Assembly (NCBI RefSeq): GCF_020360975.1
Contig: NW_025408679.1
Location: forward strand, 2,356,001-2,420,000
Reading direction: 5' to 3'
DNA: 64,000 nt
Source: Hirsutella rhossiliensis
Taxonomy: Eukaryota > Ascomycota > Sordariomycetes > Hypocreales > Ophiocordycipitaceae
This document shows, in pieces, positions 1,470-53,200 of the stretch. Each line of letters starts with the position of its first letter. Within the stretch, counting starts at the first letter, position 1. The position numbers were made by a program, and so were the translations under genes. The notes below the pieces were generated by a model. The model ran no database searches. It saw nothing but the letters and a program-made list of their open reading frames with translations, and was not told the DNA's origin.

Positions 1470-1558
1470 GATGCCCTGATAACGCGTTGTGTAACGGTCA
1501 TCGACAAGGAATTGTTGTGCCGGGGCCTTTTGAGGAGCGCTATAGGCATCTTCCTTAG

Positions 1559-3252: not shown

Positions 3253-3356
3253 AGTGTCGGAGGTGAATTGTAGTAATCAATTGTACTGATTAAAGCACAA
3301 TCGCGAGGGAGTCGGAATACGTTGCTGACGCAGCTAAGCTATGTCTTTCCTTTCCT

Positions 3357-3625
3357 TCGAACGGTCGGTGAGTTGCTCGGCGGAACGGCAGTTAGGAATA
3401 GCAATAGGTTAGCCGTAGGTTCTGCTTCTTTCTTCCGAACGGCACAGTGAGTTGAAGGCGGATCGGAATAAGGAGTGTCTCCTGCTCTTAGCACAAACTT
3501 GTCGTCTTCGAACGGTCGGTGAGTTGCTCGGCGGAACGATTCACGGAGTTTGTCTCTTCTACCCGTAGAGGAAAAGTATCACTTTCTCCGAACGGCACGG
3601 TGAATTGCAGGCGGATCAGATCGGC
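3357..3625. repeat. tandem duplication in the copia leader, period about 151 bp
   Basis: Two alternating motifs occur twice: CTTCGAACGGTCGGTGAGTT at about 3355 and 3506, and CCGAACGGCAC at about 3436 and 3589. They lie between the LTR (3684-3957) and the gag start (3252), in the untranslated leader. The function is unknown; the leader of such elements usually carries packaging and priming signals. Confidence 0.75.
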
Positions 3626-3683
3626 GACTCTTCGTCTACCTTGCTGCTCTGTGGCTCCTTCGGGACCTGGAACCACTGATCAG

Positions 3684-3957
3684 TGATGGTAGGCACCTAT
3701 GTGCCTACAGATACGCATGCGCACAAGCTGTAGGCTGAGTCACAGTCACGACAGGTAGGGTAACCGGTGATGACTTCAATTGTAGCTAACTAGGAAGAGG
3801 AAGCTATTCACAAGAAACGGAATGTGCACCCGGTAATGGGGGCATGCAGCCGGGGCTGCGTGCCCTGATCGCGGGGTAGGGTGTCACGTGGGAGTCGTGC
3901 ATGAACCGTGATGGTATCCCGATTGCACGGGTTACTCAGCAGGTTAGTATTCCAACA
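3684..3957 (-). repeat. probable 5' LTR of the minus-strand copia element
   Basis: Read on the minus strand the segment begins TGTTGGAATAC and ends ACCATCA, the TG...CA form of an LTR. It is followed directly by CTGATCAGTGGTT, which is also what follows the 5' LTR of the sister element at 16306. Length is 274 bp against 280-284 bp there. The partner LTR is outside the window, so the outer boundary is inferred from the TG/CA rule. Confidence 0.6.
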
Positions 3958-4018
3958 GTATGTCTAATTGTTGTACGGATAAGTGCGTAAATCGACGTGG
4001 TGGGGCTTCGTGCGTTTA

Positions 4019-4172
4019 TGGGGGGAAATTAGGTACATAATCCTACTAGTTAATTGGCGGGGCCGCTATGTACTCTTTTTTGCGAATCAACGGACTTTTT
4101 GCTACTCAACGCACCCCCCGTGCATGACTTGACATGCGCGGGAATCGGGACGGATTTTAGTCCCCCCAAGTA
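4019..4172. mobile_element. truncated copy of a TA-flanked MITE
   Basis: The sequence is nearly identical to the right three-quarters of the complete 206-bp element at 34282-34487 and lacks that element's left terminal inverted repeat. It ends in CCCCCCAAGTA like the complete copy. No coding capacity is present. Confidence 0.85.
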
Positions 4173-4267
4173 CAAGGGAGAGGAAGTCACGAAGCTAGCT
4201 TTGTGGCCTCAGCCGTACTCAGCCGTACACGTGACTGTGTACGTAAGCTAGCTAGGTGAGTGCAATA

Positions 4268-6211
4268 ACGTAATCTACCCCCTTCCTGGCCACACCCCCT
4301 ACCTGCTCAAAATTTCCCCACCCAAGCGACCCGTACCTCATGGCGCGACCAACCGAACACAACAGACGGCAATTGATTCCAAGAGACAAACAAGCAAGTA
4401 AATTCAGACCTGTCTATCTATTACACGTCCGGGCATTATGTTCAAATGACCTGCATTTACTACACCGTGGTGGTGCACGCCGTCTTGGGACGCACAGCTC
4501 TTCTTCTGTCTGCCGTCGGGCCTGCTCCTCGATAAGTTGTTGCCCTGCCTGCTCATCCTCCCTTGCCCTCAGTCGCCTAGCACGTTCCTCTTCCTTTTCT
4601 CGCCGTCGCTTTATCTTAGCCGTGCCTTCTGCGACAGACAGAGCACCACCATCACCAATATACTCGCGTCGTTGCTCTCTCTTCCTCTTTCGCCGCTGGT
4701 TTTCTGACCGAAGATGTCTGTTTTCGTCGGCGAGCAGCGCGGCACTATGCATGGCCATTTGACATCCTTTGATGAGCTGGTTTATGGCTTGTGAGACCGG
4801 CGTGCCCGCATTTTGTGGCCGGCGCTGAAGAAGTCCTTCCACGTGAGTGGTAAGCTGGCTAACATTGCAAGGTGTCTTGTGGGCTTCCAAGCTTTCTGGG
4901 GCTTGGTGTGCTTGTCGCCGTCATCGTTGGCATTGTTGTTGCCATTCCTGTCAACCTGAACTAGTAACCGTGACAGAACCCGGGTCGGATTGAATGGGAA
5001 AGGCCTGTGGCCATGAATCCACTTCGGATGTTCGACGGGAGAGCGCTTGTCGGCGGGCCTCGATGTACAGAAGCAGGAAGTCCTCTTTATCGATGTGGTT
5101 GACCCTGCGAGCATCTTCTCTTGAACATTCCGCCCATATATCGTTTTCAAAGGCGAAAAGCACCCGACATCCAGAGGCTGTAAGAGATGTGAGGAATGAG
5201 CTGGCATTTGGAGTACCACGATGGCATTGTCTGTACAGTACTTGTCGAACTCCGGCGTAACATGGCTGCCGTGCCCGTCGAGAATGAGAAGTCGGCGTGT
5301 TCCAACGGTACGGCGCCGTGTGTATGGGTCGAAAACTCCCTTCAACCAATGCAATCCAAGGTCGTCGGAAGTCCAACCTTTGTCGCTCACGGCAATCTGC
5401 CAGTCCTTGGGCACATCTGCCTCGTACCAGCTTGCTTGGTGCACCTTGCCCTGGAAGATGACCATCGCCGGCAAAGCCCAACCTTGGCAATTAATAGATT
5501 CAATTACGGTAACCCATTCTCGATTTCCTGGCTGCATGACCATAGGCCGACCTCGCCGGTCAGACCGAGTAAGGACTCTTGCCGACGCAATGACTCCCAT
5601 TTGAAAACCCGTCTCATCGAAGTTGTAGACATCCTCATCAAGAATCCCCCATTTCTGTTTCGCCATTGCCACCCGATCGTACCATTCTTGCATCATCTTC
5701 GGGTCTTCGCATTTGGCACGTTGGTAATCGTATCGACGAGTATTTCGCCTTGATTTCGTCGTGGCGGCCAACGAACTTCCGCACCCAATTTTCGCCGACA
5801 GTTTCTTGGCAGCGCTCCGAAAGCAACAAGTTGGCCATGCGGCGAGTGTAGACCACTGTCGGCGGCATCCCTCGCTCGTCCATCGACAAGACCCATTGTA
5901 CGAGGGCAGTCTCTTCCGTCGCCGTCAACTTCCGGTTGTTCATCTGCGCGTCGCGTCGGGGCCGGGCACCGCGCAGTCGAGCAGAGACTGTCGATTGAGG
6001 GACATCGTATGCCGTCGCGGCCTTGTGGGCGCTGTCGAATTGGCCTTGCTGATAGGCCTTCACGGCGAGCAGGACCCGTTCTTCGCGTGGAATCGATTGG
6101 TCTCGAATTTCCGTCATGGTGGTCGGCCTGTCTCGCCATGAGGTGCGGGTCGCTTGGGTGGGGAATTTTTGAGCAGGTAGGGGGTGTGACCAGGAAGGGG
6201 GTAGATTACGT
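4268..6211 (-). mobile_element. Fot/pogo DNA transposon, copy 1
   Basis: The element is 1944 bp, close to the usual Fot1-type size. Terminal inverted repeats of about 75 bp start with ACGTAATCTACCCCCTTCC at 4268 and at the mirror end 6211. Each end is flanked by TA (4266-4267 and 6212-6213), the target duplication expected for the Tc1/mariner-pogo superfamily. It is the full-length relative of the 1549-bp copy at 48041-49589. The Tc1 remnant at 6233 lies only 21 bp away. Confidence 0.93.
4414..6117 (-). pseudogene. Fot/pogo transposase (CENP-B HTH + DDE), frameshifted
   Basis: The ATG at 6117 starts an N-terminal psq/CENP-B-type helix-turn-helix region (AATAYDVPQSTVSARLRG). The DDE domain follows in a second frame with the acidic motifs YNFDETGF, LILDGHGSH and LQPLDVGCF. 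A C-terminal coiled, Arg/Glu-rich tail in a third frame ends in CSKCRSFEHNARTC. Frameshifts lie near 5750 (just before RYDYQRAKCEDP) and near 4800-4890. The first is shared with the copy at 48127-49443. The intact enzyme would cut and paste the element at TA sites. Inactive as it stands. Confidence 0.88.
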
Positions 6212-16593: not shown

Positions 16594-18580
16594 ATGTCAC
16601 AAGGACAAACAGAAGGCATAAGGGTTATACAACCTCAAGAAGATGTACGCCTACGCCAACCTATTTCTGCTCAGGAATTTATGCGCGGAACCGACTTCGC
16701 GGCCGATTTTTCCGCTATAGACCCTCAGCTTCGATTCAAAGATATCTCAGTCGATAATATAACGGAGATACATGCAACCACGTACGCAGCTAAGGCCCTT
16801 AAAGCCTATACTCTTGAGAAGATGTGGGATGATGAAGTCTTCCATGCTTTCCAACAAGACTTTGAAGGATGGACGCTAGACATGTTCCTTATGGTTGAAA
16901 TTTCATACCGGCGGGAGCTCCGCCGGGTTCTCCGCCGAAAGGGAGTATATACTGGGACGAACCACCAGCGAATCGAACGATCCTTGATTAAGCTACTCGA
17001 AGCCGACAGTTTCCCTACTTGGGACCCCGAGGAATTCACAAAACAGATATTTGACGTACGATCAAATGCTTCCTGGCAACAACAAGCCCTCGCAACGCCT
17101 TCTTCCCGAGAGAATATCCAAAATCCGACCCAAGACCAGTCACCAAGGGACCAGCCTACAACCCAAGCCCAGGCTTTGCAACAGCAGCAACAGGTTGTTT
17201 CAAGGACCCCAGAGGCCTCCCGAGCAAGCCCAACAGATGACCCCCCAAGGAACCTTATTCCAAGCCCCATTTTCCCAGGAAAGCTTTCCCCAAGACATCC
17301 CCACTCAACAGACCCAGACGAAGTCTATTCCCCAAGCCCCCTTACTACAGTCATTTCCTTCAAGGCAGACCCAGCCTGACGGGCATCAGCCGTACAAGGC
17401 CCTGCCCCCTCGTTCCGTTCCGAACGAACGGCTTGACCCCGCCGTTTCTGCCCAGTTTCTAAAGACCTTTGACAAAGACCAAAAGTACACAGGCGAGCCC
17501 TACGACCTCCTTGACGATAAGATGAAGATCTTTTTCAACATCTGCTTCCATGCACAGATCCGGGAGACCCAATTCTATGCGGTATTTCTAGGATTCTTAA
17601 CGGACGAGCAGAAACCTTCTACCTTCATTACGTCGATCAAGACGATACATTTGCAATAGCGTATCACAAGGTTAAGACGCATTTCGACACCGATGTTAAC
17701 CATCATCACTATTACACCGACTGGACAACTGCTACCTTCGATAGGGTCCGTAGGGAACATAGTGATAAGACCCTACATCAGGTTCTTCAGCTGCTACTTG
17801 ATAAGCTACAGCTTTGCCAGAGGGGCCCTAGGCCCTGAGTATCGAGGGGAGGATAATTTACGTACTACAGTTATCCGAGCCTGCCGAGGAGTCATAGAAC
17901 TTGAACACGCATTGTTCAAGCCTGCCCGCGTGTGCGAAGAGCTTTTTGCTGATTTACGGTCTTCAATCGAGACCTCTATCAGTAGACAAGCTATATATAC
18001 AACCTCGACGGACAGCTACTACATGGACCGACGGTACAATCAGTACGGTAGGAACCGCGGATATTCCTCTTTTCGGCCCCGAGGGAACCCACAAGGTAGC
18101 CGAGATCAGAAACGACAGTGGACGAAGAAGTGCTTCGTTTGTGGAAAGCCAGAATGTTGGTCAACGAGGCATTCCGACGAAGAAAGACGTAAGTCACGAA
18201 GCCAGTATATCTCACAATGCCACTTCAGTGGGTCTACGGCCACAGCTACGGACTACGCTGCCTACCTCACGGAATATGAAGGAGCCGATACGGACGAGGA
18301 AGCCGACTTTGACCCTAGTGACCCGTTTGACGACGAAGACGAAGACCAGTTGCAGGACGTAACGCAGTTCCTTACAGACCAGGCTTTCTTGCACCAAGTC
18401 ACCGGAGAAGACATCTACGCCGATAATGCCCCAAAGACCCCATCCAACCAGTTCCTTATTGAGGACCGGTATGCAGGACGCTTCAAGGCATCCTTCCAGA
18501 TACCGGTGCAGCCAACGTCTCGACTGTCGGTATGCAACAGTATCTTGCGCTGCAGCGGGAAGATCCTTCCGTTGCTATAG
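16594..18580 (+). pseudogene. copia gag, frameshifted
   Basis: The ATG at 16594 opens 261 codons of gag N-terminus, with a Pro/Gln-rich stretch; the protein then continues in other frames (17380-17660 with GEPYDLLDDKMK, then 17693-18580). The zinc knuckle CFVCGKPECWSTRH at about 18130 has the C-x2-C-x4-C-x4-H order also seen in the copy at 1559-3252. Acidic repeats follow. At least two frame breaks. Confidence 0.82.
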
Positions 18581-21500
18581 ATAAATCGACAGCCGGAAGA
18601 GCTTCCATCACGTTCGGAAAAGGAGAGTCAACATCGTCTATAGGGAATGTTAACGTACGAACAGCTATTGGACAGATCGACTTCCAGGTCCTCAACGCTC
18701 CGACCCCTTTGCTTTGCCTTGCAGACATGGATAGGCTGCACGTCTATTTCAATAATACCACAGACGAACTTATCCAAGGCGAGACCCGCATCCCTATTAT
18801 ACGCAAATGGGGACATCCTTGGTTTCATCTTAGCAAGCAAGAACAGAGCCTTTTTCTTACAGAAGGGGAACTACGTCGCCTACATCGCCGTTTCGGGCAC
18901 CCCGCTACAGATCGCCTATTCAAGCTGCTAACCCGGGCCGGCCACGAAGTCGAACAGCAACGGCTAGAGGAAATCGGCAAATTCTGTCATCACTGCCAAC
19001 TACACGGACGAGAGCCTCGTAGGTTTAAATTCAGCCTAAAAGATGACCATGAATTCAACTATGAAATTCTTGTCGATGTGATGTACTTAATTAGCCGCCC
19101 TGTCTTACATGTCGTCGATTCTGCTACTGCTTTCCACGGGCTAGGTTCCTGAAGTCCCTATCAACAAAGGACACTTGGGAAGCCCTCCGCTGCTTATGGA
19201 TCGATACGTACCAAGGACCCCCGGACGTTGTTACCCACGATGCAGGTACGAACTTCGCCTCAACGGAATTTCAAACCGAGGCCAAGATGCTAGGGATTAC
19301 CTGTAAGGAAGTCCCTATTGAAGCCCATTGGTCTATCGGCAAGGTTGAACGGTACCACGGCCCTTTGCGACGAGCGTTTGAGATTATGTACGCAGAGCTC
19401 TCAAGCCAGGCAGACGCAGATTCGATCCTCCAGATGGCCGTTAAAGCAGTCAACGATACCGCCGGACCAGACGGACTTGTACCTACCCTTCTTGTCTTCG
19501 GGCTTACCGAATCACCGCCGATTCGCCGCCGAATCCTCGGTAATCCGACGCGGTGAGGTCGTACGCAAAGCTATGAAGGAACTACGCAAGTTTATGGCCA
19601 ACCGGGACGTTAAAGAGGCCCTAGGCACACGCAATGGTCCAACAACTATTGACGTTCTAAACCTCAAGTTGCAAAGCGAGGTATGCGTTTGGCGGGAGAA
19701 GGTTGGCTGGCGAGGCCCTATAAGGTTATAAGTATAAAAGACCATGATATCACGGTTGATATGGTTAACGGACCAACGACCTTCCGATCAACTGTCGTGA
19801 AGCCGTACTATAAGGACGATAACTCCCTGCTGCCCCGGCACGGACGAACAACCTCGGAAGAGAGGACGCCCGCTTAGATCGACGAATGCACCCGCAGCTC
19901 AGACAACGGAGCCCGCAGCCCAGACAGCCGTAAAGCCGCCCACAGGACCACGCAAGCGAGGTCGACCCCGGGATCGAAAATAAGAAGCATAGCTTGTACA
20001 ACGCCCAGACCTTCCTACAGAAACGGAAATGGACGATATTGCCCTTGCCATTAAGCTTCGAGACGACGGCGTCATTACAACGCCAGGTGCCCCGTTTGAA
20101 CAGTCCGATCAAAAGGAAATCAATGACCTCATCGGAAGGGGGTATTTACCTTCGAGTTATTCGACCCGACCAAGCATCGAGGAACACGGATTTTCAAGTC
20201 ACGATTAGTCCGAGAAGTTAAAGGAAAGTATATAAAGCCGTACGAAAAGTCTCGCCTCGTAGTCCAAGGCTATAACGACGACGAGAAGAACACTCTTTGA
20301 CCCAATCGCCTACCATCCAGCGGGCTAGTCAAAGACTAATCATAGCCCTTGCCCCAACGCTCCTTACGTCCGGTATGTCCCTCGAACTAAGGGATATATC
20401 ACAAGCCTATACGCATTCAACGACAGGACTTGCACGCCTAGTCCTAACCTATCTTCCCATCGAACTACAGGATAAGTACCCAAAGGGACTATCATCCGGA
20501 TCGTCCGCCCTCTTTATGGCATTGCAGAAGCAGGCCTACATTGGTTCGCAACATACCACAAGCATCATAGGGAGCAGCTACGGATGTCGACTTCAACGTT
20601 CGACCCATGCCTCCTTATAACGAACACGGACCCCAACCAAGCGTTTGGCATAGTGGGCATGCAGACGGATACACCCTGATCCTCGGAACAGCAGGCTTTT
20701 CTGTACACGAAGAAAACAAGATACAAGAAGCTAAGTTTATCGCCAAGCCAAAGACAAAGCTTTTAATTTCTTCGGCCCTAGACTTCAACGGCTGTACGCT
20801 TGCACTAGACGAAAAGGTCGAATTCACCTTAAGCAGAAGGGACAAGCTAAGAAAATCGCCCTTATTAACGTGGAAGCTTCTGATCGTATGCAAAAGTACA
20901 TGGAACAACGCGCCCGAGGAGCCTATATCGCCTCAATCTGCCAGCCAGAAGCTACGTGTGATATGTCAACCGCGGCACAGGTCCAACAGCCCACAGACAC
21001 GGACTGCATCACCTCAACAAAAGACTCAAATGGCAACAGGACAACCTACAAAGAGGATCCAATACGTGCCCCTAGACCTACAGACAGCTAAACTAATGGT
21101 CTTTACGGATGGATCATTTGCCAACAACAAGGACCTCTCATCACAAATCGGCTTTCTTGTTATGCTTGTTAACGAAAACAAGAAAGCTCCGAGGATGTTC
21201 CTTCTTTTAACATTAACGGCAATTTGATCCATTGGAGCTCTACGAAGTGCAAGAGGGTAACCTGAAGTGTGCTTGCCTCCGAGATCTACGGCATGACCGA
21301 CGGATTTGACATCAGCCTTGCTATTGCAACGACCCTAAGAATGATCACCGACCGACTGAATCTCCTCCAATCCCCTTATCGTCTGCGTAGACTCTTATTC
21401 CCTTTACGAATGCATTGTCAAGCTCGGCACAACAAAGGAAAAGCGTCTTATGATTGACATTATGGCTCTACGGCAGTCATATGAGAGACGGGAGATATTA

Positions 21501-28021: not shown

Positions 28022-30723
28022 TTAAATGTCACTCCGCCCCTTCAGCGACGCAAGAGCATCAATCCATTGATCCTCGTTGAGGCTAAACAGCGGCAGTGAA
28101 GGCCTGTAGATCCCAGCTTTACTCCACGATCGAATGCATTGAGCCATCGCTACGATCTCCTCCGCAGCCGGCTTCTCAATGGTGCCGTCATACGTCCTGC
28201 GCTGCTAAACGTCCTCTCGCTTTCCGCGGACGTCGATGGAATCGTAAGCATGTCTACTGCCATCAGAGACAGTCGCGGATATCGGCTCCGGTTGATCTTC
28301 CACCAGTCAATCGGTCTGCTTCTGTAGTGGCGGCTGTTGACGACGTCCTCGGCACAATATCGAGCATATTTGTCATCACCAGTCGCTCCCGCCGTAGACG
28401 GTTTCGTCTTTCGGTTGCTTTTGCGGGCACCTGATGCTCCGAACGAGCCCTGGTTGAATGGCGGCGCAGCTACAGTCCTAGCAAGTCTCCGCTCAATGTA
28501 ATCCATGGAGGCCTCATCAGACGTAGCGAGGATCTCGTTGTCAACGTCGCGCTCCCTATACTTCTCCCAGATCTCCAAGAGCTTTGCTTCGTATTCCAAC
28601 CGCCAACTCTTCGTCTTCCGAGAGGGTACTCGAGACCACAGTTGATCGAGAAGGCGCCACTTTTTCGCAGGATTGAAGACAACAGCCCCGACATATGCAG
28701 CGCTAGTCAGACGGCTGTAATATTTATGCAGCTTCTTCCATCCGAGCTTGATATAGACCTTGAGCAACCTGCGGGTCCTGCTATCGAGCCCGTCATAAAT
28801 GGCTACTTCGACGTCCTTCTTCTCCCTAGTCACTGGATCCTCAACCTCTTCGAAGATTGTGCCTTCGATAGCACTTTCGAGGTGGTCAAGCAAAATCTCA
28901 AAGACGGGGAAGTATTCATCGAAACTGCCACATGTGGACCTACCGCCGGGAACACCACTGCCCTGAAGTTGCTTGGTGGAAATCTCGAACGGCTTCAGAA
29001 GCTTGACAAGTACCTCGATAACTTTCCAGTCGTACGCACTTAAGCGGTACTGCAGAACTGCCTGCTTCGTTCTGTCACAGAGGCCTCCGTTTCCCACCGG
29101 TTCTGAACGTCATTGAGGAAGGTATTGAGCGCCGGGCGGAGTCGAAGAGCCCGTTCCATCATACGCATGTCCAAGGTTCTACCGGGTGGCATTGTTGAAG
29201 GCCCAGTGAAGTGTTGTTCCGTGGCCGGATTCCTTACGTTGAGACTGAAGAAAATGTTCGTACAGCTGTGTGTTTCGCAGCTGAAGACCGATGTTATGAA
29301 GCATTCCGGGGCGCCGTTCTGACTGTACTCCTGAAGCTGGCAGCATTGATCTCGTCCGGAGCCGGGTGAGACGATGTGAGGTCCTCTTCTGGGATGTCAA
29401 CGGCAGTGTTTGCTCCTGGGTCTTCGTCCGTACCGTCCTTCATCTCTCCATTTAGGGCCTCGTCGATAGCTTGATCAACTTGCTCCTCGTCGTCATCTAG
29501 ATCGTCCCCATCGGCAGCAACAATTGCAGCAAAATTCTCTTGCTTCGAACCGTACAGCATTGCCCGCACACAGAGGTTGAGGATATGTGCAGCGCAGCGG
29601 ATCCGTCGCTCTTCGGGTGAGAAGCCGTGCTCAAAGGCAAGGTCTTCCATGCAGGTGTCATTGTTGGCAGCATTGTCCAGCGTGAAGTAGCCGACCGTGT
29701 CTGGGTTGTTGACTTGCCAGAATGCCAGTGTATCGGCGACCTCATCGGCAAGCGACGCACCGTTGTGTTTGCCGAGAGAGGTCGCAGCCCAAGGAGGATG
29801 CGGTGTTGGGCAAAGTCGTGATCAATGAATTGAGCATTGATGCCCAGAAATGCGGTGTAGGACTTGGATGACCAGCCGTCGAAGGAGAAGTGAACCTGTG
29901 ATCGAGCGGTGCGAAGTACTTCCGTTACGGGCCCGACGGCACCTCTGTATTCAGATTCGAGCATGCGAAGTAGCGTCTTCCCAGAGGGTATATGGGTCGC
30001 ATCAAGGAGCAGATTGCCGTAGAGAAGGAGCCGTTGGAACCTCTCGGTGTTGACGATATCGAATGGCAGATTATGGTACGTGATCCAGTCGAGTAGGAGC
30101 ACCCGGAGCCTTGCTGTTGAATCTTCCACGCAGCTTGCTGACAAGGAACTGGTCGTGCGGATTATTGAAGTCGGCACCAATGAAGTGGGTGATGGGCCGG
30201 CCATCTAGAGATGAGGCTCGCACGCCTCCGGCAACGTCGTGTGGGGCCTGCCAAGTGAACACTCATGTTGCTGGTATATCTCCGAACGGCACACACTTAC
30301 CAGAATTCCGTGGGCGTTACGAAGGTGCTTCTTGGTAGCGGCTCCTGTTGAGCAGACGAAGCAGAAGTCTGACTTCTTCTTGAAGCCTCGGGCGAAGCAA
30401 TCCGCGCAGATCCACTTCAGCCTGTTGCCCTGGCGCGAGGTGGACCGGTCCTCAACACGATACCCGTATTGCTGCCACCACGCCCTCGTATCCTGGCCGC
30501 CAGTATAGCGCTCGAATCCAGGCCATTTCGCCCACTCTTGGCGGCCCCAGAGCGTCCAATCTACTTGTATAAAGTCGACAGCAGTACCGCGAGGACGAGG
30601 TGATGGAGTCGTCGGCAACGAGGTTCCTTGGGATGATGCGGGTGGTAAAGACGAGTACTCCACACGCCCAATCAGATCTGACCGGTTCGACGGGGAAGGG
30701 CTTGACAGTGGTTCGGATGACAT
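28022..30723 (-). pseudogene. hAT transposase with BED finger, frameshifted
   Basis: The ATG at 30723 begins an N-terminal region with a BED-type zinc finger (WICADCFARG, then CSTGAATKKHLRNAH). Just after it lies an intron with GTAAGTGTG donor and TTGGCAG acceptor (about 30250-30302). The middle region continues through RVLLLDWITYHNLPF, FSFDGWSSKSYTAFLGI and YFTLDNAANND, then RIRCAAHILNLCVRA. The hAT dimerisation motif DWWKINRSRYPRLSLMAVDML with IPSTSAESERTFSSAG is near 28240-28330. Frames change near 30100, 29780, 29300 and 28160, with the last part ending at 28022. The intact enzyme would excise the element in the nucleus; this copy is dead. Confidence 0.87.
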
Positions 30724-36446: not shown

Positions 36447-36870
36447 AGAGTAATGCTACTTGCACAGTAAAAAGATCTCTATTTGAACAGTAATACCTTT
36501 TTACGTGCATTTTCCAGAAAACTGAACGTACCATACGGTAACTTCTAGGTTCCGTTAATTGCGCACAGCGCCCATCGATTGCAGCGTCAATTACAGCGCC
36601 GTTAATTGCAGCGTTAATTGCAGCGTTAATTACAGCGTTAAATTACAGCGTCAATTGCAGCAGCGTCAATTGCAGCAGCTTCAATTGTAGCGTTAATTGC
36701 AGCGCCATAAAGATTAAGTGACTTAGGTATACTTTAAGGTACAAGAGTACTTCTCGGCCCTTTTCCGCGCTAGCAGGGGTTTGGCGAAGTGGCTTTTAGC
36801 GAATCAGAAGCCTTTAAAAGGGGGTTTACTGTTCAAATAGAGATTTTTTACTATGCAAGTAGCATTACTC
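36447..36870. mobile_element. 424-bp MITE with internal 12-bp tandem repeats
   Basis: Inverted arms AGAGTAATGCTACTTGCACAG at 36447 and mirror ending GCATTACTC at 36870, about 48 bp each, with TA at the outer sides (36445-36446, 36871-36872). It lies about 220 bp upstream of the micro-exon gene start. Confidence 0.85.
36553..36715 (+). repeat. tandem GTTAATTGCAGC repeats
   Basis: About a dozen imperfect copies of a 12-bp unit (GTTAATTGCAGC, with GTCAATTGCAGC and GTTAATTACAGC variants) inside the MITE. Confidence 0.9.
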
Positions 36871-37091: not shown

Positions 37092-40000
37092 ATGCAGGTT
37101 ACGATCGTTCTTTTCACGGCCCTTGCCGCAAGGGGACTAGCGAGTCCAGTTTTGGACGCAAAATCGGACGCAAATCTAGAGAAACGAGTATCTATCCCAT
37201 GATTTGACGACGAGTCTTGACTGCTCGCAGTATGCTGATATAGATGGCAACTCTAGCAAGTAAGTATCTAGTTATCCCGTGTTCTGACGTCGAGTCTTGC
37301 CTGCTCGCTACTCGCGGTATGCTGATATAGATGGCAACTCTAGGTCGTAAGTATCCATCCATCCCGTGATCTGACGTCGAGTCTGGGCTGCTCGCTGCTC
37401 GCGGTATGCTGATATAGATGGCAACTCTAGGGCGTAAGTATCCATCCATCCCGTGATCTGACGTCGAGTCTGGGCTGCTCGCTGCTCGCGGTATGCTGAT
37501 ATAGATGGCAACTCTAGTCCGTAAGTATCCATCCATCCCGTGATCTGACGTCGAGTCTGGGCTGCTCGCTGCTCGCAGTATGCTGATATAGATGGCAACT
37601 CTAGTGTGTAAGTATCTGGTTATCCCGTGATCTGACGACGAGTCTGGGCTGCTCGCAGCTCGCAGTATGCTGATATAGATGGCAACTCTAGGCCGTAAGT
37701 ATCCATCCCGTGATGCTGCTCGCAGCTCGCAGTATGCTGATATAGATGGCAACTCTAGCAAGTAAGTATCCATCCCGTGATTTGACGAGGAGTCTTCGAC
37801 TGCTCGCGGTATGCTGATATAGATGGCAACTCTAGTGGGTAAGTATCTAGTTATCCCGTGATCTGACGACGAGTCTGGGCTGCTCGCTGCTCGCAGTATG
37901 CTGATATAGATGGCAACTCTAGTGTGTAAGTATCTAGTTATCCCGTGATCTGACGTCGAGTCTGGGCTGCTCGCAGCTCGCAGTATGCTGATATAGATGG
38001 CAACTCTAGGCCGTAAGTATCCATCCCGTGATGCTGCTCGCAGCTCGCAGTATGCTGATATAGATGGCAACTCTAGGGCGTAAGTATCCATCCATCCCGT
38101 GATCTGACGTCGAGTCTGGGCTGCTCGCTGCTCGCGGTATGCTGATATAGATGGCAACTCTAGGGCGTAAGTATCTATCCATCCCGTGATTTGACGTCGA
38201 GTCCTGGCTGCTCGCTGCTCGCTGCTCGCAGTATGCTGATATATATGGCAACTCTAGGGCGTAAGTATCTGGTTATCCCGTGATCTGACGTCGAGCTCGC
38301 AGTATGCTGATATAGATGGCAACTCTAGGACGTAAGTATCTATCCATCCCGTGATCTGACGTCGAGTCTTGGCTGCTCGCTGCTCGCAGTATGCTGATAT
38401 ATATGGCAACTCTAGAGCGTAAGTATCTAGTTATCCCGTGATCTGACGTCGAGCTCGCAGTATGCTGATATAGATGGCAACTCTAGCTCGTAAGTATCTA
38501 TCCATCCCGTGATCTGACGTCGAGTCTGGGCTGCTCGCTGCTCGCTGTATGCTGATATAGATGGCAACTCTAGTGCGTAAGTATCTATCCATCCCGTAAT
38601 TTTACGAGTCTTGACTGCTCGCAGTATGCTGATATCGATGGCAACTCTAGGTCGTAAGTATCTATCCATCCCGTGATCTGACGTCCAGCTCGCAGTATGC
38701 TGATATAGATGGCAACTCTAGGGCGTAAGTATCCATCCATCCCGTGATTTGACGTCGAGTCTGGGCCTGCTCGCTGCTCGCAGTATGCTGATATAGATGG
38801 CAACTCTAGCTCGTAAGTATCCATCCATCCCGTGATTTGACGTCGAGTCTTGGCCTGCTCGCTGCTCGCTGCTCGCTGCTCGCAGTATGCTGATATAGAT
38901 GGCAACTCTAGGGCGTAAGTATCTATCCATCCCGTGATCTGACGTCGAGTCTTGGCTGCTCGCTGCTCGCTGCTCGCAGTATGCTGATATAGATGGCAAC
39001 TCTAGGTCGTAAGTATCTAGTTATCCCGTGATCTGACATCGAGTCTTGGCTGCTCCCTGCTCGCTGCTCGCAGTATGCTGATATAGATGGCAACTCTAGT
39101 GTGTAAGTATCTAGTTATCCCGTGATTTTACGAGTCTTGACTGCTCGCAGTATGCTGATATAGATGGCAACTCTAGTGCGTAAGTATCTATCCATCCCGT
39201 GATTTGACGTCGAGTCTTGGCCTGCTCGCTGCTCGCAGCTCGCAGTATGCTGATATAGATGGCAACTCTAGCTCGTAAGTATCTATCCATCCCGTAATTT
39301 TACGAGTCTTGACTGCTCGCAGTATGCTGATATCGATGGCAACTCTAGCTCGTAAGTATCTATCCATCCCGTGATCTGACGTCGAGTCTTGGCCTGCTCG
39401 CTGCTCGCAGTATGCTGATATAGATGGCAACTCTAGAACGTAAGTATCTATCCATCCCTTGATTTGACGTCGAGTCTTGGCCTGCTCGCTGCTGCTCGCA
39501 GTATGCTGATATAGATGGCAACTCTAGGACGTAAGTATCTATCCATCCCGTGATTTGACGTCGAGTCTTGGCCTGCTCGCTGCTCGCTGCTCGCAGTATG
39601 CTGATATAGATGGCAACTCTAGCACGTAAGTATCTATCCATCCCGTGATTTGACGTCGAGTCTGGGCCTGCTCGCTGCTCGCAGTATGCTGATATAGATG
39701 GCAACTCTAGCTCGTAAGTATCCATCCATCCCGTGATTTGACGTCGAGTCTTGGACTCTTGGCTGCTCGCTGCTCGCAGTATGCTGATATAGATGGCAAC
39801 TCTAGCCCGTAAGTATCCATCCCGTGATTTGACGTCGAGTCTTGGCTGCTCGCAGTATGCTGATATAGATGGCAACTCTAGGGCGTAAGTATCTATCCAT
39901 CCCGTGATTTGACGTCGAGTCCTGGCTGCTCGCTGCTCGCTGCTCGCAGTATGCTGATATATATGGCAACTCTAGGGCGTAAGTATCTGGTTATCCCGTG

Positions 40001-40949
40001 ATCTGACGTCGAGCTCGCAGTATGCTGATATAGATGGCAACTCTAGCCCGTAAGTATCCATCCATCCCGTGATCTGACGTCGAGTCTTGGCTGCTCGCTG
40101 CTCGCTGTATGCTGATATAGATGGCAACTCTAGCAAGTAAGTATCCATCCATCCCGTGATTTGACGTCGAGTCTTGGCCTGCTCGCTGCTCGCTGTTCGC
40201 AGTATGCTGATATAGATGGCAACTCTAGTGTGTAAGTATCCATCCATCCCGTGATCTGACGTCGAGTCTTGGCTGCTCGCTGCTCGCTGCTCGCAGTATG
40301 CTGATATAGATGGCAACTCTAGTGTGTAAGTATCCATCCCGTGATTTGACGTCGAGTCTTGGCCTGCTCGCTGCTCGCTGCTCGCTGCTCGCAGTATGCT
40401 GATATAGATGGCAACTCTAGCAAGTAAGTATCTATCCATCCCGTGATCTGACGTCGAGTCTTGGCTGCTCGCTGCTCGCTGCTCGCTGTATGCTGATATA
40501 GATGGCAACTCTAGGGCGTAAGTATCCATCCATCCCGTGATTTGACGTCGAGTCTTGGACTCTTGGCTGCTCGCTGCTCGCAGTATGCTGATATAGATGG
40601 CAACTCTAGCTCGTAAGTATCTATCCATCCCGTGATCTGACGTCGAGTCTTGGCTGCTCGCTGCTCGCTGCTCGCAGTATGCTGATATAGATGGCAACTC
40701 TAGCCCGTAAGTATCCATCCCGTGATTTGACGTCGAGTCTTGGCTGCTCGCAGTATGCTGATATAGATGGCAACTCTAGCCCGTAAGTATCCATCCATCC
40801 CGTGATCTGACGTCGAGTCTTGGCTGCTCGCTGCTCGCTGTATGCTGATATAGATGGCAACTCTAGTGTGTAAGTATCCATCCCGTGATTTGACGCGGAG
40901 AATGTTTGATGGGCTGGCAGCATGTTGACACGACTGGCGACTGTAGTAA
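37092..40949 (+). CDS. micro-exon gene: secreted 8-Cys peptide from 43 single-codon exons
   Basis: Exon 1 (37092-37187) encodes 32 residues: a signal peptide (MQVTIVLFTALAARGLA) and a short propeptide ending LEKR, a Kex2-type site. Then come 43 exons of exactly 3 nt, all phase 0, and a final exon starting with TAA (40947-40949). The product is 75 aa; the mature part would be the 43 residues encoded only by micro-exons, Gly- and Leu-rich, with Cys at mature positions 5, 9, 17, 23, 24, 36, 37 and 43. Micro-exon starts: 37257, 37344, 37431, 37518, 37605, 37692, 37759, 37836, 37923, 38010, 38077, 38164, 38258, 38329, 38416, 38487, 38574, 38651, 38722, 38810, 38912, 39006, 39100, 39177, 39272, 39349, 39437, 39528, 39623, 39711, 39806, 39882, 39976, 40047, 40134, 40229, 40323, 40421, 40515, 40610, 40704, 40780, 40867. 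The first donor is the weaker GTATCT; all others are GTAAGT. Predicted role: small secreted cysteine-rich peptide, activity unknown (effector, antimicrobial and signalling roles are all possible). Splicing is inferred, not observed. Confidence 0.78.
37188..40946 (+). repeat. tandem array of 44 near-identical introns
   Basis: Each unit reads GTAAGTATC, a CCATCCCGTGATYTGACG-type block, a variable number of GCTGCTC units, TATGCTGATATAGATGGC and AACTCTAG. These supply a donor, a CTRAY branch point about 18 nt before the acceptor, and an acceptor. Lengths run from 64 to 99 nt, mostly set by the GCTGCTC count, and are often not multiples of three. The spacer between CTCTAG and GTAAGT is always exactly 3 nt and varies (14 different codons, no stop). 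The first unit is degenerate at its donor; the last (40870-40946) has a diverged 3' half ending CGACTGTAG. Confidence 0.93.
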
Positions 40950-41080
40950 CTCCAATTTCCTGTGGCGGGTTCATTGGGTGAGTTTGAAACGTTCTTAAAG
41001 GTTAGGGTGGGGAAGCTTCGGTCGTTGTATGGAGTTCTCCTCAGGAGTTTAAGCTCGGCCGACCGTTAGCGGGTTACTGT
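40950..41080. other. convergent intergenic strip
   Basis: About 130 bp between the stop of the micro-exon gene and the stop of the MYND pseudogene on the opposite strand; it would hold both 3' ends. No clear terminator was identified. Confidence 0.4.
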
Positions 41081-41589: not shown

Positions 41590-43710
41590 TTAGACACTCT
41601 TCATCTGACGAAACAGAAATCTTACCTCGGATGGGAGTATCAGAGCGCTCCGGTCCCAGGATCGTGGGCATTCCAAGAGATTTAAAGTTTCAATGTTCAT
41701 AGATCCTCGCTGGTCGGTTACCGAAAGTTTGGCTTTGGAGAAGAGCCGCTCTGTCTCAGTAGACATAGGCGCAATCGATAGAAGGTCAATGGCCATCAAA
41801 GATAAGTTAGGAACCGTCGCCGCTGCGCTGACTCTAACCACCATTTCAACGGATCCGATACCATCACCACAGGCTCGCGGCAATACACTTCGTACTCGTC
41901 GTCATCCATGTTGAAAATCGTAGCCTTTGCTCTTTCATCCACATTTTGTACCCATTTGGTCGTCTTGCACTTGGCTCTTGTGCGGAAGCTGGTCGAAGAA
42001 CAGGGCAGGAGTGGTAGATTTGTATGCCTCCTCCAGAGCTCCCCTACCCGAGCTTTAGCTCTCTCAATCCATTCATTCTTGTCGTCCCAAGTCTTCTCCA
42101 TATAGGCCCACTTGAGGAAGGATTTAATACCGTCGCTGCTGAATAGACTGGCGAATCTTCCGTCAATTCGTAGTAGTCGGCTAATTTGGCCCATGTCGTC
42201 TCCATCATTGTAGCCAAGTGGGGGATGGTAGTGGCCTCCTTGGCCGCTTCAATGTGATGCAAGAGATAGTCCATGGTTGGCAGAACGTCAGAGATGGAAT
42301 TGCCGGTGCCTTCGTTGGCCATTGTAGCGTCGTGAAAAGGTTCGAGAAATTTGTGAATTTCAGCCAAAGTAACCCAGTCAGAGGAAGTCAGAGCATCGTC
42401 TTGCAGGGCAGGCTCTTGAGCACAAAATATGGTGATGCCTTGACGGACTTTTGTTCTAAGGGCCCACTCAACCATGCTATGCCACGAATTCCAACGAGTG
42501 TCATTGTCGCGCCGTAGCCGTAGACCGTCAGTGAGACCAGTGAATGTCTGAAGTCGCTGGGGAGTCCAGGTGATGTAGACCACGATATTATGCAATTTGC
42601 CTATCGCCCCTCGCTTTCTCCATTGCTTAACTTCGTCGTCGGACGGTCCGTGGTAGGAATCTGCTGTGGGTGGTCGCTTTCCATGAGGAACTCCATCACG
42701 GCCAGGTTAATGATGTGGCCGAAACAGCGAAGTCGGTGAGGAAGAGGATCGTAGAAAACTTCGAACTCGTGCTCCAAGTCGTCGGAGACTTTGTCGATCA
42801 TGGTATTCATGTTGGTGGCATTATCCATCATAAAGTATCCAACTTTTGTCGCTATTCCATATTCTCGTATGAACTCCATGATGGCTTCTGCCATGTTCTC
42901 GCCGCTGTGCTGTCCTTCCAATTCTTTTATCCTCACCACCAGGGACTGCAGACCATGATCTTCGGTAACGAATTGAACTGTAAACCCTATTACGCCCAAA
43001 CAATTCGGCGATGTCCAATTGTCTGGAACAATGTGGATTGACGAGAGAGCATTCTGCAGAGCTCGCTTTACAAACTCCTTCTTGTTGTCGTAGCCCCATT
43101 GTAAGTCATTTTTAACCGTGTCGCCGGACCTCGGGAGGAGATCATCGGCGGCCGGACGGATATACCGGATAAAGTCGCGAAAGGCCGGCTGCTCAACATG
43201 AGCAAATGAGAGGCTGCAAGCTACTGTATAACGGCAGTACAGTTCGCGGAGAGTCGCTTGATCTAGGGCATCTTCCTCTGCGGTCGCCTTGCGTTTCTTG
43301 GTGGAGAACAAAGTTCCATTGGCCAGGAATGCGGTGATGTCTCCGAGGCGACTTTGCGTCACTTCCCGCCTGATCTCCTGCCGCCCAGAAATAATGATAT
43401 TGTGCTCCTTTCGCAAATGATTGACGATGGCGGACGACCCACCACAGTAATTGTATTTCTTCGCTCTTTTCTTGTCGAAGCAGGGCTGGCAATGCCACCA
43501 TTTCGTTCCATTGGAATCAACCCAAGCTGCCGGAATACTCCTACCTTCTTCTCTTCGACAATACTGCCAAATAGGAGACGTCTTTCGGCGGTAGACGCTA
43601 AGGACAGGCGAAGAGGATGGTGCCGGTGACGGGGAAGCCGCTGTCCCACTAATAAGGTCAGAATCATCTATATAGGTGCCAGCCTCGGAGTGATCCACGA
43701 TGGAGGACAT
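41590..43710 (-). pseudogene. hAT transposase with BED finger, frameshifted
   Basis: The ATG at 43710 opens a 369-codon frame with a BED finger (WWHCQPCFDKK, then GGSSAIVNHLRKEHNI), the start of the catalytic region (SIHIVPDNWTSPNCLGVIGF, GYFMMDNATNMN) and HRLRCFGHIINLAVMEFL. After a shift near 42620-42650 the domain continues (LRRDNDTRWNSWHSM, FLEPFHDATMANEG), shifts again near 42150, and ends with the dimerisation region (LSLMAIDLLSIAPMSTETER near 41770). Three frames are needed, so it is inactive, but less decayed than the other hAT. Confidence 0.88.
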
Positions 43711-48040: not shown

Positions 48041-49589
48041 ACGTAATCCACCCCCTTCCCGGTCACACCCCCTACCCGCTCAAAATTCCCCACCAACGCG
48101 ACCCGCACTCCATGGCGCCGAGCACGATGACGGAAATTAGAGACCAATCGATTCCACGCGTCCTGCTCGCCGTCAAGGCCTATCAGCAAGGCCAATTCGA
48201 CAGTACCCACAAGGCCACGACGGCATATGATGTCCCTCAGTCGACAGTATCTGGTCGACTGCGTGGTGCCCGCTCCCGACGCGACGCGCAGATGAACAAC
48301 CGGAAGTTGACGACGACGGAAGAGACTGCCCTCGTACAATGGGTCCTGCCGATGGACGAGCGAGGGATGCCGCTGACAGTGGTCTACACTCGCCGCATGG
48401 CCGGCCAACTTGTTGCTCTCTGAGCGCGGCCAAGAAACTGTCGGCGAGAATTGGGTGCGGAAGTTCGTTGGCCACCACGACGAAATCAAGGCGAAATACT
48501 CGTCGATATGATTACCAACGTGCCAGATGCGAAGATCCGAAGACGATCCAAGAATGGTACGATCGAGTGGCAATGGCGAAGCAGAAATGGGGGATTCTTG
48601 ACGAGGATGTCTACAACTTCGATGAGACGGGGTTTCAAATGGGAGTCATTGCGACGGCAAGAGTCCTTACTCGGTCTGACCGGCGAGGTCGGCCTATGGT
48701 CATGCAGCCAGGAAATCGAGAATGGGTTACGGTGATTGAGTCTATCAATTGCCAAGGTTGGGCTTTGCCGGCGATGGTCATCTTCCAGGGCAAGGTGCAC
48801 AAAGCAAGCTGGTACAAAGCAGGTGTGCCCAAGGACTGGCAGATTGCCGTGAGCAACAAAGGTTGGACTTCCGACGACCTTGGATTGCATTGGTTAAAGG
48901 CAGTTTTCGACCCATACACACGGCGCCGTACGGTTGGAACACGTCGACTTCTCATTCTCGACGGGCACGGCAGCCATGTTACGCCGGAATTTGACAAGTA
49001 CTGTACGGATAATGCCATTGTGGTACTCCAAATGCCAGCTCATTCCTCACATCTCTTACAGCCTCTGGATGTCGGGCGCTTTCGCCCTTAAAACGATATA
49101 TGGGCGGAAGGTTCAAGAGAAGATGCTCGCAGGGTCAACCACATCGAGAAAGAGGACTTCCTGCCTCTATACGTCGAGGCCCGCCGACAAGCACTCTCCC
49201 GTCGAACATCCGAAGTGGATTCATGGCCACAGGCCTTTCCCATTCAATCTGACCCGGGTTCTGTCACGGTTACGCGTTCAGGTTGACAGGAATGGCAACC
49301 ATGATGCACGGCAACAACTTGTCGAGGAGGAGCAGGCCCGACGGCAGAGAGAAGAAGAGCTATGCGTCCTAAGACAGCGTGCACCACCACGGTATAGTAA
49401 ATGCAGGTATTTTGAACACAATGCCCGGACGTGTAATAGATAGACAGTTCTGAATTGACTTGCTTGTTTGTCTCTTGGAATCAATTGCCGTCTGTTGTGT
49501 TCGGTTGGTCGTGACGTGAGGTGCGGGTCGCGTCGGTGGGAAATTTTTGAGCGGGTAGGGGGTGTGACCGGGAAGGGGCTGGATTACGT
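48041..49589 (+). mobile_element. Fot/pogo DNA transposon, copy 2, internally deleted
   Basis: Same family as 4268-6211, opposite orientation, with inverted repeats starting ACGTAATCCACCCCCTTCCC and TA at both sides (48039-48040, 49590-49591). It is 1549 bp, about 395 bp shorter, because of a deletion near 49305 that removes the region between DRNGN and the QQLVEEEQARRQ tail. Confidence 0.93.
48127..49443 (+). pseudogene. Fot/pogo transposase, frameshifted and deleted
   Basis: The psq/HTH start (ATG 48127) lacks three residues present in copy 1. Frames break near 48410 and near 48500, the latter at the same base context as in copy 1 (KYS before RYDYQRARCEDP; here the next codon has become a stop). 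The DDE motifs YNFDETGF, LILDGHGSH and LQPLDVGRF are present. Another shift follows near 49085, and the tail ends at 49443. Confidence 0.88.
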
Positions 49590-49753
49590 TAAGTTAACTA
49601 AGTTAACTAACTACACGGGTCCGTACAAGCCACGGGTCCCTGCTGAGTCAGTACCGTCCACGGTAAATTTTCCTGCCTCTCGCTACAGGCTAATCGTGCC
49701 CGCCCCCACTTTATTGGGATTCGCTTTGTGCTACCCTTTTAATGGGCAACATT

Positions 49754-49942
49754 GCCTCCATGGCGTAGTGGTGACACGTCTGGAGTCTCTGCTCTGCAGA
49801 GAGGTCGGTTCGAAACCGGCTGGAGGCACCCCTGGGTGAACAGGGTACACCCGGGTTCCCGCTCGTCATCAGGGCCAACGTCATGAGAGAACACCAGTTC
49901 ACAACGTCAAGTTCAAAGGAAGAACCGAAAACAAAAAAAAAA
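49754..49942 (+). mobile_element. tRNA-derived SINE-like sequence with A-rich tail
   Basis: The first 75 nt (49754-49828) have a perfect 7-bp acceptor stem (GCCTCCA/TGGAGGC), an A-box-like TGGCGTAGTGG and a B-box GGTTCGAAACC, so an internal Pol III promoter. The anticodon arm cannot be folded properly (TCTCT/AGAGA closes a loop lacking U33), which argues against a working tRNA. About 110 nt of unrelated body and an ACAAAAAAAAAAG tail follow. No target duplication found. Confidence 0.6.
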
Positions 49943-49989
49943 GTTAATTGCAACAGAAGAATACGTCAAGTACAATCGGCGTACCAACC

Positions 49990-50236
49990 ACCATCAATTA
50001 CTAACACAACCAGCTTCAACTTCGACAAATCACGCTTCAGTTGCTGAGAATAGGATGCTGAACACTTGGAGAAATTGACCTTCAAGCAGGTCTGTCATGA
50101 AGCGAACAGTGGAACGGTTGGCGCAGCGTAAGATGATCTGTGGGGCTTGAGGTGTCATGCATCAGTGTATCGAACCGTCAATAGCCAGAGCGTCTAGGCC
50201 CTATAGGAAGTATCCTCCGGGCGAAATAAATCCATA
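49990..50236 (+). mobile_element. LINE 3'-untranslated fragment, copy 1
   Basis: Parallels 53585-53835 and 60905-61125 (shared GATGCTGAACACTTGGAGAAA, CTTCAAGCAGG, CCTCCGGGCG), the 3' end of a Tad-like LINE. It is a heavily 5'-truncated copy that ends where the next LINE begins. Confidence 0.8.
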
Positions 50237-53200
50237 CCAATGGGCAACATTGTGGTTTTGGCGGGGGACTTCAACCGCCACGACCTCCTCTGGGGCGGAG
50301 ATGAAGTGTCAGCGAGCAGACAAGGGGAGGGCCAGCCCATCATTGACCTGATGGACGACTTTGGTCTTAGCAGCCTTCTCCCGAGAGGAACGAAAACGTG
50401 GCAAAGGTCGGACGAGGAGAGCACCATCGACTTGGTGCTGGCATCGGCGGAACTGGCGGACGAGTTGACATCCTGCGTGATTCATCCAACAGAGCACGGA
50501 TCAGACCATAGAGCGATCCAGACGACCTTCGACATTCGAGTGCCGGAGCGTACCTTTCCGCAGCGCCTGATGCTCAAGAACGCGCCGTGGATCGCCATCG
50601 CAACCAGGGTCGAGGACGAGCTTCGGCCTCTTCCGTGGACTGTGGGGGGTGCAGACGCAGGCGGATCAGCTCATGCGGGTGGTCACCAAGGCGCTTCGAG
50701 ATCTGACTCCTCGAGCCCAGCCGCCGTCATACGCGAAGCGATGGTGGACAAAGGACCTGACGCGACTCCGTCGGACGTACACGTATTGGCGCAATCAAGC
50801 AAGGGCGCAGCGAAGAGCCGGTCAATCGCGTCCGGATCTGGAGCAGCGCGCCAAGGAGGCTGCGAAGGAGTACCACGACAATTTGCGGAGACAAAAGAAG
50901 GCCCATTGGGATGACTTCGTCATCGAAGGGAGCAACATCTGGAGGGCTGCCAAGTATCTGAAGCCTGGTACGGAGATGACGGATGACAAGGTGCCCCGCT
51001 GAAGAGAGCCGACGGTTCGATCACCGAAAGCAAGGGCGAGCAAGCCGAGGAACTCCTGAGCACCTTCTTTCCGCCTCTGCCAACGAGGATCGAGCCGGAG
51101 GGTGAACGTCCGCAGAGAGAAGAAATAGCCATGCCAGACCTCACCTTGCAAGAGATTGAGGAGAAGGTGATGGCGGCGAAGCCCTGGAAAGCGCCTGGTG
51201 AGGATGGCCTTCCTGCGATCGTGTGGAAGAAGCTCTGGCACGTGGTCAAGCACCGGGTGTGGACGCTCTTCAGCTCATCGCTCCGAGAGGGCGTCGTGCC
51301 TCATCAATGGCGAACGGCCAAGATCATCCCTCTGAGGAAACCAGATAAAGGAGACTACACCCTGGCCAAGGCGTGGCGACCGATTTCTCTCCTGTCGACG
51401 CTTGGCAAGATTCTGGAGGCAGTCGTCGCGGAACGTATCAGCTATGCAGTCGAGGCTCAAGGGCTTTTGCCCGCGAACCACTTTGGTGCACGGAAGCGCA
51501 GGTCCGCAGATCAAGCACTCGTGCTTCTGCAGGAGCGAATCTACAAGGCCTGGAGAACGGGCAGAGTGCTCAGCCTCATCAGCTTTGACGTCAAAGGCGC
51601 ATACAACGGAGTGCAAAGAGCGAATGCTCGAAAGGATGAAAGCCCGAGGCATCCCGAGTCGACTGGTCAATTGGATAGACGCATTCTGCTCGGGACGGAC
51701 CGCGTCGGTGGTTGTCAACGGGCACACATCCGAGCAACAAACCCTGCCGCAGGCCGGCCTACCCAGGATCTCCTCTGTCGCCAGTGGCTTTTCTTTTCTT
51801 CAACGCAGACCTGGTGCAAAGACGGATCAGTAATAACGGTGGCTCCATCGCCTTCGTGGACGATTACTCTGCCTGGGTCACGGGGCCAACGGCAGAGTCA
51901 AACAGAGATGGTATCCAGTCGATTATCGATGATGCGCTTGATTGGGAGAAGCGCAGCGGCGCCACATTTGAAGCAGAGAGACATCCTTCATCCACTTCAC
52001 ACGCATCGCGGAGCGTGACAGCGACCTGCCTCTCATCATCAAAGGAAACGATGTCAAGCCGAAGAGCAACGTGAAGCTGTTGGGAGTCATCATGGACAAA
52101 GCGCTTCGCTTCAAGGAACACATCGCCAGAGCGGCCGCCAAGGGGCTGGCCGCGGCCATGTGTTTGAAACGACTGAAGATGGCTTCGCCACGGATGGCGA
52201 GGCAACTGTTCGTCGCGACCGTGGCGCCAGCCATGGACTATGCCTCAAACGTGGTCGCACGCGTGCGGGGTGAAAGAAGCGGTGTGGATTGGCAGGGCCC
52301 AGCGAATCGGAGCCCAGGCTGTCACGGGAGGCTTCCGCACGGTGGCAACGGCAGTGGCCGAGGCCGAGGCCGGCGTGCAATCGTTCCGAGAACGGCATGC
52401 TCAAGCGGCAGCGAAATTCTGGATAAGGATGCGGACGCTCCCGAAGACGCATCCTCTGACATCGTTGAGGCTCAAACTGAACAGGAGGTATGCGTCGCCA
52501 ATGCAGAAGCTCGCCTCGGCGATGGGAAGAATAGATACCAAGCGCCTGGAAGTCATCCACGAGTTCGCACTGGCGCCGTGGGACGAACGAGTGCAGGCAA
52601 CGGATGAGACAGACCGAGTGGAGGTGCTGAAGTCGGATGACCCGGAGGACATCACTATTGCGACGTCCAGCTCGCAAAGGAAAGGCAAGGTCGGGTTGGG
52701 AGGCGTCGTTCGGGATGCTTCCGCGACAGCGTAGACGAAGTGCTGGCCAGCTACTCCGTCACTCGGCTCCAGTGATGAGAGAATGCCTACACAGCAGGAC
52801 TCGAGGCAATCGCCACGGCTCTGAGGTGTGTACCTCTCGGTCTTCATGACCGAGATCTCACGGTTGTGACGAGCAACCGCTCTGTCCTGCAAGTCATCGG
52901 GCGGCCACGGCAACAGTCTGGTCAGTGCACGATACGGGCGATATACGGATCTGTTGAGTATCTGGCGAAAAGAGGCTGCAGAGTCAGACTTCGTTGGGTG
53001 CCTGCAAAGAATGAGGAGTTCACCCTGGGCCACTGGCCAAAATGCAAGCGAAAAGAGCGACGCGAGACGAGTGCATCGCCGAACCAGCAACGTTTCAAGC
53101 AAGATCAACGACGTTACGACTGCTGCTCAACGAAAACGCTCGCGTTCGTCAGATCCCGGAAGGGGTTGGAAAGCACTCAAAGCGCATCGATAAGGCATTG

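Follow-up and report, generated by a model that had tools for sequence, protein, structure and literature searches.

Micro-exon genes (MEGs) of Schistosoma code for secreted proteins and contain many tiny in-frame exons (PMC5825161). Their micro-exons are longer than one codon. A gene that seems to carry this design further is present in a 64,000-nt stretch of DNA from Hirsutella rhossiliensis (NW_025408679.1, positions 2,356,001 to 2,420,000; hereafter the window), which lies on the contig designated C13 in an 81.8-Mb assembly of 40 contigs. On the plus strand of the window, between positions 37092 and 40949, an array of single-codon exons is very probably spliced to an mRNA whose product would be a secreted precursor of 75 residues, rich in cysteine, in which each residue behind the pro-segment has an exon of its own. 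The likeness to the Schistosoma MEGs is that of a predicted secreted-protein gene with many tiny in-frame exons, and on the DNA the window gene belongs to the descriptive class of micro-exon genes, with 43 in-frame 3-nt units behind a predicted signal-peptide exon. The difference is that here the length of every exon of the mature region is exactly that of a single codon, and that the organism is a fungus.

One or two tiny exons of 1 nt or 3 nt are described in ordinary genes, according to the reports on Arabidopsis APC11, Fusarium CYP621A and Dactylellina haptotyla lipS (PMC4674806, PMC12940212, PMC5639578), whereas in the window gene dozens of 3-nt exons in a row would make up the product. 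The process predicted here resembles recursive splicing at ratchet points in that a donor is regenerated by stepwise removal. At a ratchet point, however, acceptor and donor are juxtaposed, while the window array has a codon in between, which would stay in the transcript after every step. Of the two introns next to a 9-nt exon in a potato gene, the second is reported to be removed first. Fungal introner-like elements and stwintrons likewise consist of similar introns that recur as families within a genome, but here the introns follow one another at every codon within one family of secreted peptides. The array units are not stwintrons themselves, since donor and acceptor are intact in every one of them. 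In a literature search that covered few subscription papers or preprints, no gene built of single-codon exons was recognized.

If the prediction holds, exon design reaches its lower limit here over an entire gene: every codon of the mature product has its own exon, and introns account for about 94% of the total length (3630 of 3858 nt). How splicing passes faithfully through 44 introns around 3-nt exons, whether peptides can be rewritten by way of introns, and how many secreted peptides escape annotation would then all become testable.

Structure and predicted splicing of the gene

Exon 1 (37092 to 37187) begins with the ATG at 37092 and comprises 96 nt, or 32 codons, ending in LEKR. Its product, MQVTIVLFTALAARGLASPVLDAKSDANLEKR, can be read by eye as a predicted signal peptide and a short pro-segment with a dibasic, Kex2-type KR end, in agreement with the signal peptide and KR end given in an earlier note on this DNA. 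Intron 1 (37188 to 37256) has GTATCT as donor and CTCTAG as acceptor; the donor of its counterpart in a sister array on contig C6 is GTATCC. The array proper extends from 37257 to 40869 and consists of 43 single-codon exons and the 42 introns between them, in units of the type 'TAG NNN GTAAGT', none of which occurs elsewhere on the plus strand of the window. Its codons start at 37257, 37344, 37431, 37518, 37605, 37692, 37759, 37836, 37923, 38010, 38077, 38164, 38258, 38329, 38416, 38487, 38574, 38651, 38722, 38810, 38912 and 39006 (codons 1 to 22) and at 39100, 39177, 39272, 39349, 39437, 39528, 39623, 39711, 39806, 39882, 39976, 40047, 40134, 40229, 40323, 40421, 40515, 40610, 40704, 40780 and 40867 (codons 23 to 43). 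Joined in order, they predict QVGSCAQWCAGGGDSLCVGLGVCCLLNDHLPGGPQCCQGLPPC, a peptide of 43 residues with eight cysteines, and none of the 43 is a stop. The last and 44th intron (40870 to 40946), with donor GTAAGT and acceptor TGTAG, has a 3' half that is unlike the array units; the last intron of C6 is similar. The stop codon TAA (40947 to 40949, reading TAACTCC...) follows directly on this acceptor, and the spliced open reading frame (ORF) adds up to 96 + 129 + 3 = 228 nt, with every junction in phase 0.

The structure agrees with the earlier note in the 43 separations of exactly 3 nt, all in phase 0, in the terminal acceptor followed by TAA, and in a spliced ORF of 228 nt within a gene of 3858 nt. 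The note had also given GTAAGT donors and CTCTAG acceptors to all 44 introns; 43 of each are present, the first donor being GTATCT and the last acceptor TGTAG. The branch motif that it had reported recurs as CTRAY near the 3' end of all 42 inter-unit introns, which are 64 to 99 nt long. In the flanks of the exons, taken as 20 bases to each side, the entropy per column ranges from 0 to about 1.0 bit, and is 0 in 13 bases 5' and 9 bases 3' of the exons; the three codon columns reach 1.76, 1.87 and 1.16 bits.

Splicing of the window copy, its order, and the secretion and function of the product are here predicted from the DNA. The 44 short introns would probably be excised by the ordinary route of intron definition. 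A 3-nt exon would offer hardly any room for two spliceosomes at once, which makes a stepwise process likely, a ratchet of 44 steps in a presumed order: with every splice one codon would be joined on, and a fresh GTAAGT donor would come to stand behind it. Since the exons are all one codon long and in phase 0, a skipped exon would delete a residue without a frameshift. It could be imagined, and we give this about an even chance, that the equation of exon and codon turns intron plus codon into an amino-acid cassette: splicing would read out such cassettes singly, recombination between units would rewrite the peptide in frame, residue after residue, and skipping could add a cloud of variants, so that the arrays would constitute a eukaryotic peptide-diversifying system.

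Relatives in the same genome

The family was found by a DNA search of the organism's own genome, the one genome of the group that was covered. Exon 1 has homologues in the C6 array, which contains 74 single-codon exons, and in paralogues on C10, C13 and C19. The C10 paralogue (C10:2048k) is intron-free and codes for 117 amino acids (aa), and two more at C13:2253-2255k are intron-free with 98 aa each. The paralogue at C19:663k is a hybrid, with an intron-free 5' part and, close to its 3' end, three introns of 69, 72 and 75 nt. The sequence TAACTCC that stands behind the last acceptor of both the C6 and the C13 array directly follows the last codon of C10:2048k; both C13:2253-2255k copies end in TAA, with other bases downstream.

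Taken in order, the 74 codons of C6 align with the ORF of C10:2048k with a score of 215. In comparison, 2000 shuffles of the codon order gave a mean of 42.1 (sd 7.8) and a maximum of 75, the reversed order gave 39, and 12 wrong offsets gave 34 or less. The score is 155 against C13:2253k (maximum shuffle 82, offsets 35 or less) and 196 against the intron-free 5' part of C19:663k (maximum shuffle 78, offsets 36 or less). The count of 74 on which these scores are based comes from a looser donor definition; a strict donor gives 72 units, which were used in another alignment. Of 62 codons aligned between C6 and C10:2048k, 35 are identical, 9 synonymous and 18 nonsynonymous. This match in order to contiguous genes indicates that the single codons of C6 behave as exons. 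The C6 product is also 79% identical over 65% of the query (E 2e-22) to the annotated Hirsutella rhossiliensis protein HRG_012392, which by eye is identical to the C13:2253k copy through residue 90; the sole annotated relative returned by protein searches corresponds to an intron-free copy.

The exact spacing is also kept where the introns hardly resemble each other. Mean pairwise identity of introns is 0.60 in the C5 array (0.56 when shuffled) and 0.54 at C1:10737k (0.53 when shuffled), and in both the exons are still 3 nt and the frame is open; the inner identity of the units is 0.81 in the window array and 0.82 in C6. Together with the order match of C6, this near-random similarity supports, at the level of the family, the earlier suggestion that the array is the coding region and not a minisatellite. 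Genome-wide, the pattern donor-branch-AG-N(k)-GTAAGT has 228 matches with k = 3 and 8 in the reversed control, which excludes a chance origin; with k = 4 there are 5 matches (control 0) and with k = 6 also 5 (control 1). In the loci examined, most of which were chosen for 3-nt units, the 3-nt spacing occurs 197 times and all other lengths from 0 to 15 together 12 times. A tandem repeat of about 87 bp at C1:6039658-6041274 mimics the intron pattern and looks like an ordinary coding repeat.

That the window copy would be spliced as well is supported by this family, by an exon 1, a terminal exon, a type of unit and an element 3' of the gene that it has in common with other members, by a near-twin on C10, and by intact splice signals and codons. 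The twin has 41 single-codon exons, is nearly identical to the window copy and contains no stop. Further arrays contain 33 (C5), 34 (C8:677-679k) and 17 (C3:2697k) single-codon exons; in C18, 32 were counted, with further ones towards the end. Smaller or more diverged members are C1:10737k, with 11-12 single-codon exons, C6:1214k, with a few, and C1:1579k, with a few diverged ones. The first two are proline-rich runs in which the introns are unrelated and a signal exon is not obvious; they may belong to larger genes. A single-codon-exon gene at C8:1040-1052k is split by two inserts, both of which lie inside introns and by eye have inverted-repeat ends. Fragments or degenerate arrays are found at C13:2434k, C3:2986k, C3:1522k, C4:6424k, C13:1673k, C15:396k and C6:4010k, and short chains of six units at C16 and C20 were detected by script only. 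The automatic chain finder under-counts, breaking C5 into 19 and C1:10737k into 6 units, and it includes one wrong unit each in C5 and C8:678k; the unit counts given here for the arrays do not come from it.

Alternative explanations

Several observations weigh against the proposal that the window array is spliced codon by codon. The first donor, GTATCT, is weak. A database search with the 75-aa product, which also served as the comparison with the Schistosoma MEG proteins, found no homologue, and no candidate shared three 5-residue words, although the sensitivity is low for so short a query. Within the genome, the window peptide has no convincing similarity to the C6, C10:2048k and C5 products (shuffle P 0.15, 0.036 and 0.079). 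The earlier note had envisaged a short intron-free or array-type homologue: both types of relative exist in the same genome, whereas the 43-residue peptide of the window lacks a contiguous homologue. Several arrays are fragments or interrupted, and one unit of the C16 chain is a stop. Among the k = 3 matches listed, about 21 belong to other repeats (C1:6040k, AT-rich copies on C2, and C3:434k). No stop occurs among the 285 single-codon exons of eight arrays, for which uniform codon use would give a probability of 1.1e-6, but with units copied from one another and with C13 and C10 as twin arrays, the codons are not independent and the figure is only a guide. This count leaves out C8:1040-1052k, C1:1579k, C6:1214k, the fragments and the C16 and C20 chains. 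Finally, the difference between the C13 and C10 copies that is discussed below could be an assembly error in the repeat, and the two arrays are not independent of each other.

Some of these points agree with a family that is real but in which only some arrays make a product, the window copy and its C10 twin being in decay or unexpressed. The weak first donor, the missing contiguous homologue and the fragmentary state of other loci (L017, L034 and L043) fit this explanation, which we nevertheless consider unlikely, since all 43 GTAAGT donors and all 43 CTCTAG acceptors of the window copy are intact, no codon has turned into a stop, and the C10 copy is free of stops too.

A different question is that of direction. 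The intron-free copies might be ancestral, an introner having been inserted between every codon of an intron-free gene. Introners are known in fungi, and related introns occur in another multi-copy gene, around a 6-nt exon. Such a history seems improbable, as it needs some 74 insertions, each exactly at a codon boundary. Moreover, codons ending in a purine are short in the mature part of two intron-free copies (8/85 and 1/66), scarce as in the arrays, and not in exon 1 of the same copies (22/32 and 21/32). Of the 34 places with the 3' motif of the introns, 23 are in arrays or array remnants, 10 in an apparent single multi-copy gene group, and 1 is another site. A general introner explanation, though conceivable, is not supported. 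The multi-copy gene is long and, in the two places that were read (L046 and L048), has array-type introns, one pair of them around the 6-nt exon; further places lie on C7, C11 and C22.

The array might also be one giant regulatory intron, with nothing but the short peptide of exon 1 as product. The phases of exon 1 and the TAA exon do fit together; no mature peptide would remain, however, whereas the intron-free relatives have one, which makes this explanation very improbable. Least credible is a minisatellite that resembles introns by accident, its three variable bases being drift between conserved blocks: Tandem Repeats Finder does score the window array as a tandem repeat, and the units are alike in C13 and C6, yet the codon-order test refutes the idea for C6, and in the family at large C5 and C1:10737k hold 3-nt exons despite unrelated introns, the 285 codons are free of stops, and splice signals, the flanking exon 1 and the stop exon are all preserved.

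Evolution of the arrays

The window array and its C10 twin allow two closely related states to be compared. Their flanks align over 1845 and 939 bp with 0 substitutions, with five gap openings in the first and none in the second. Between these flanks, the number of units is 43 in C13 and 41 in C10. In C10, units 10, 11 and 12 recur exactly as units 24, 25 and 26, and unit 10 recurs again as units 27 and 29. The two peptides differ in the middle only, CC-LLNDHLPGGPQ-CC in C13 and CC-GGGGLGGPQ-CC in C10. Within the C13 array, introns that are identical over 74-92 nt sit after different codons. Unless one of the copies is mis-assembled, it is likely that residues have been gained, lost and copied as blocks of intron plus codon. 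A peptide of this kind would evolve by insertion, deletion and shuffling of codon-sized pieces.

The contiguous, intron-free relatives probably arose through recombination with reverse-transcribed, spliced mRNA, since their mature part is short of purine-ending codons like the arrays and their exon 1 is not. By eye, both the upstream and the 3' sequence of the intron-free copies are array-like, so that recombination with cDNA fits better than retroposition. The direction would then run from array to intron-free gene.

Predicted peptides and codon usage

In the arrays, codons ending in G are rare (12/285 in the eight arrays), and in the C8:1040-1052k array, outside that count, they are more frequent. 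The base before the donor in fungal exons is usually G, 79.9% of the time in Aspergillus fumigatus (PMC12940212).

The C5 product has a cysteine spacing of the knottin type, C-x6-C-x6-CC-x4-C-x7-C. Its Pfam score stays just below the cut-off (Toxin_12, 18.9 bits, cut-off 21), and its similarity to solved knottins in the PDB is weak (best E 0.006). The window peptide has a different pattern of eight cysteines, and its best Pfam match, DUF7155, scores 16 bits against a cut-off of 27.

A conserved hairpin downstream of the gene

About 70-116 nt after the stop codon of the window gene, at 41019 to 41065 on the plus strand, a conserved hairpin is present. With up to 3 mismatches it is found at 25 places in the genome, the window included, and the reversed pattern at 0. 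In 21 aligned copies, 97% of the pair cells are standard, and 16 cells show a double change against a shuffle mean of 5.7, with none of 500 shuffles as high. When the partner is shifted by 1-3 columns, pairing falls to 53% or less. Single hairpins do not stand out by their folding energy (z -1.47, -0.10 and 0.62), and it is the alignment alone that supports the structure. No known RNA family was detected at E 1 or below between 36500 and 41600.

The hairpin does not serve as an array marker, as only one of 11 new places, L034, has an array remnant. Five of the new places (L032, L037, L039, L040 and L041) are preceded by predicted secreted proteins, which reach up to 195 aa in length, and at five others (L033, L035, L036, L038 and L042) no convincing upstream gene was seen. 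Since it stands behind array genes as well as intron-free predicted secreted peptides, it marks a wider group of genes rather than the arrays. It is possibly an RNA element of this secreted-peptide gene group.

Surroundings of the gene

A 12-bp tandem repeat of the type ATTGCAGCGTTA lies at 36578-36704 in the window, some 390 bp before the start codon. Open frames that by eye are transposon- or retroelement-like lie around the gene at 792-5771, 16594-19152, 28150-30204, 42601-43710 and 48339-52018.

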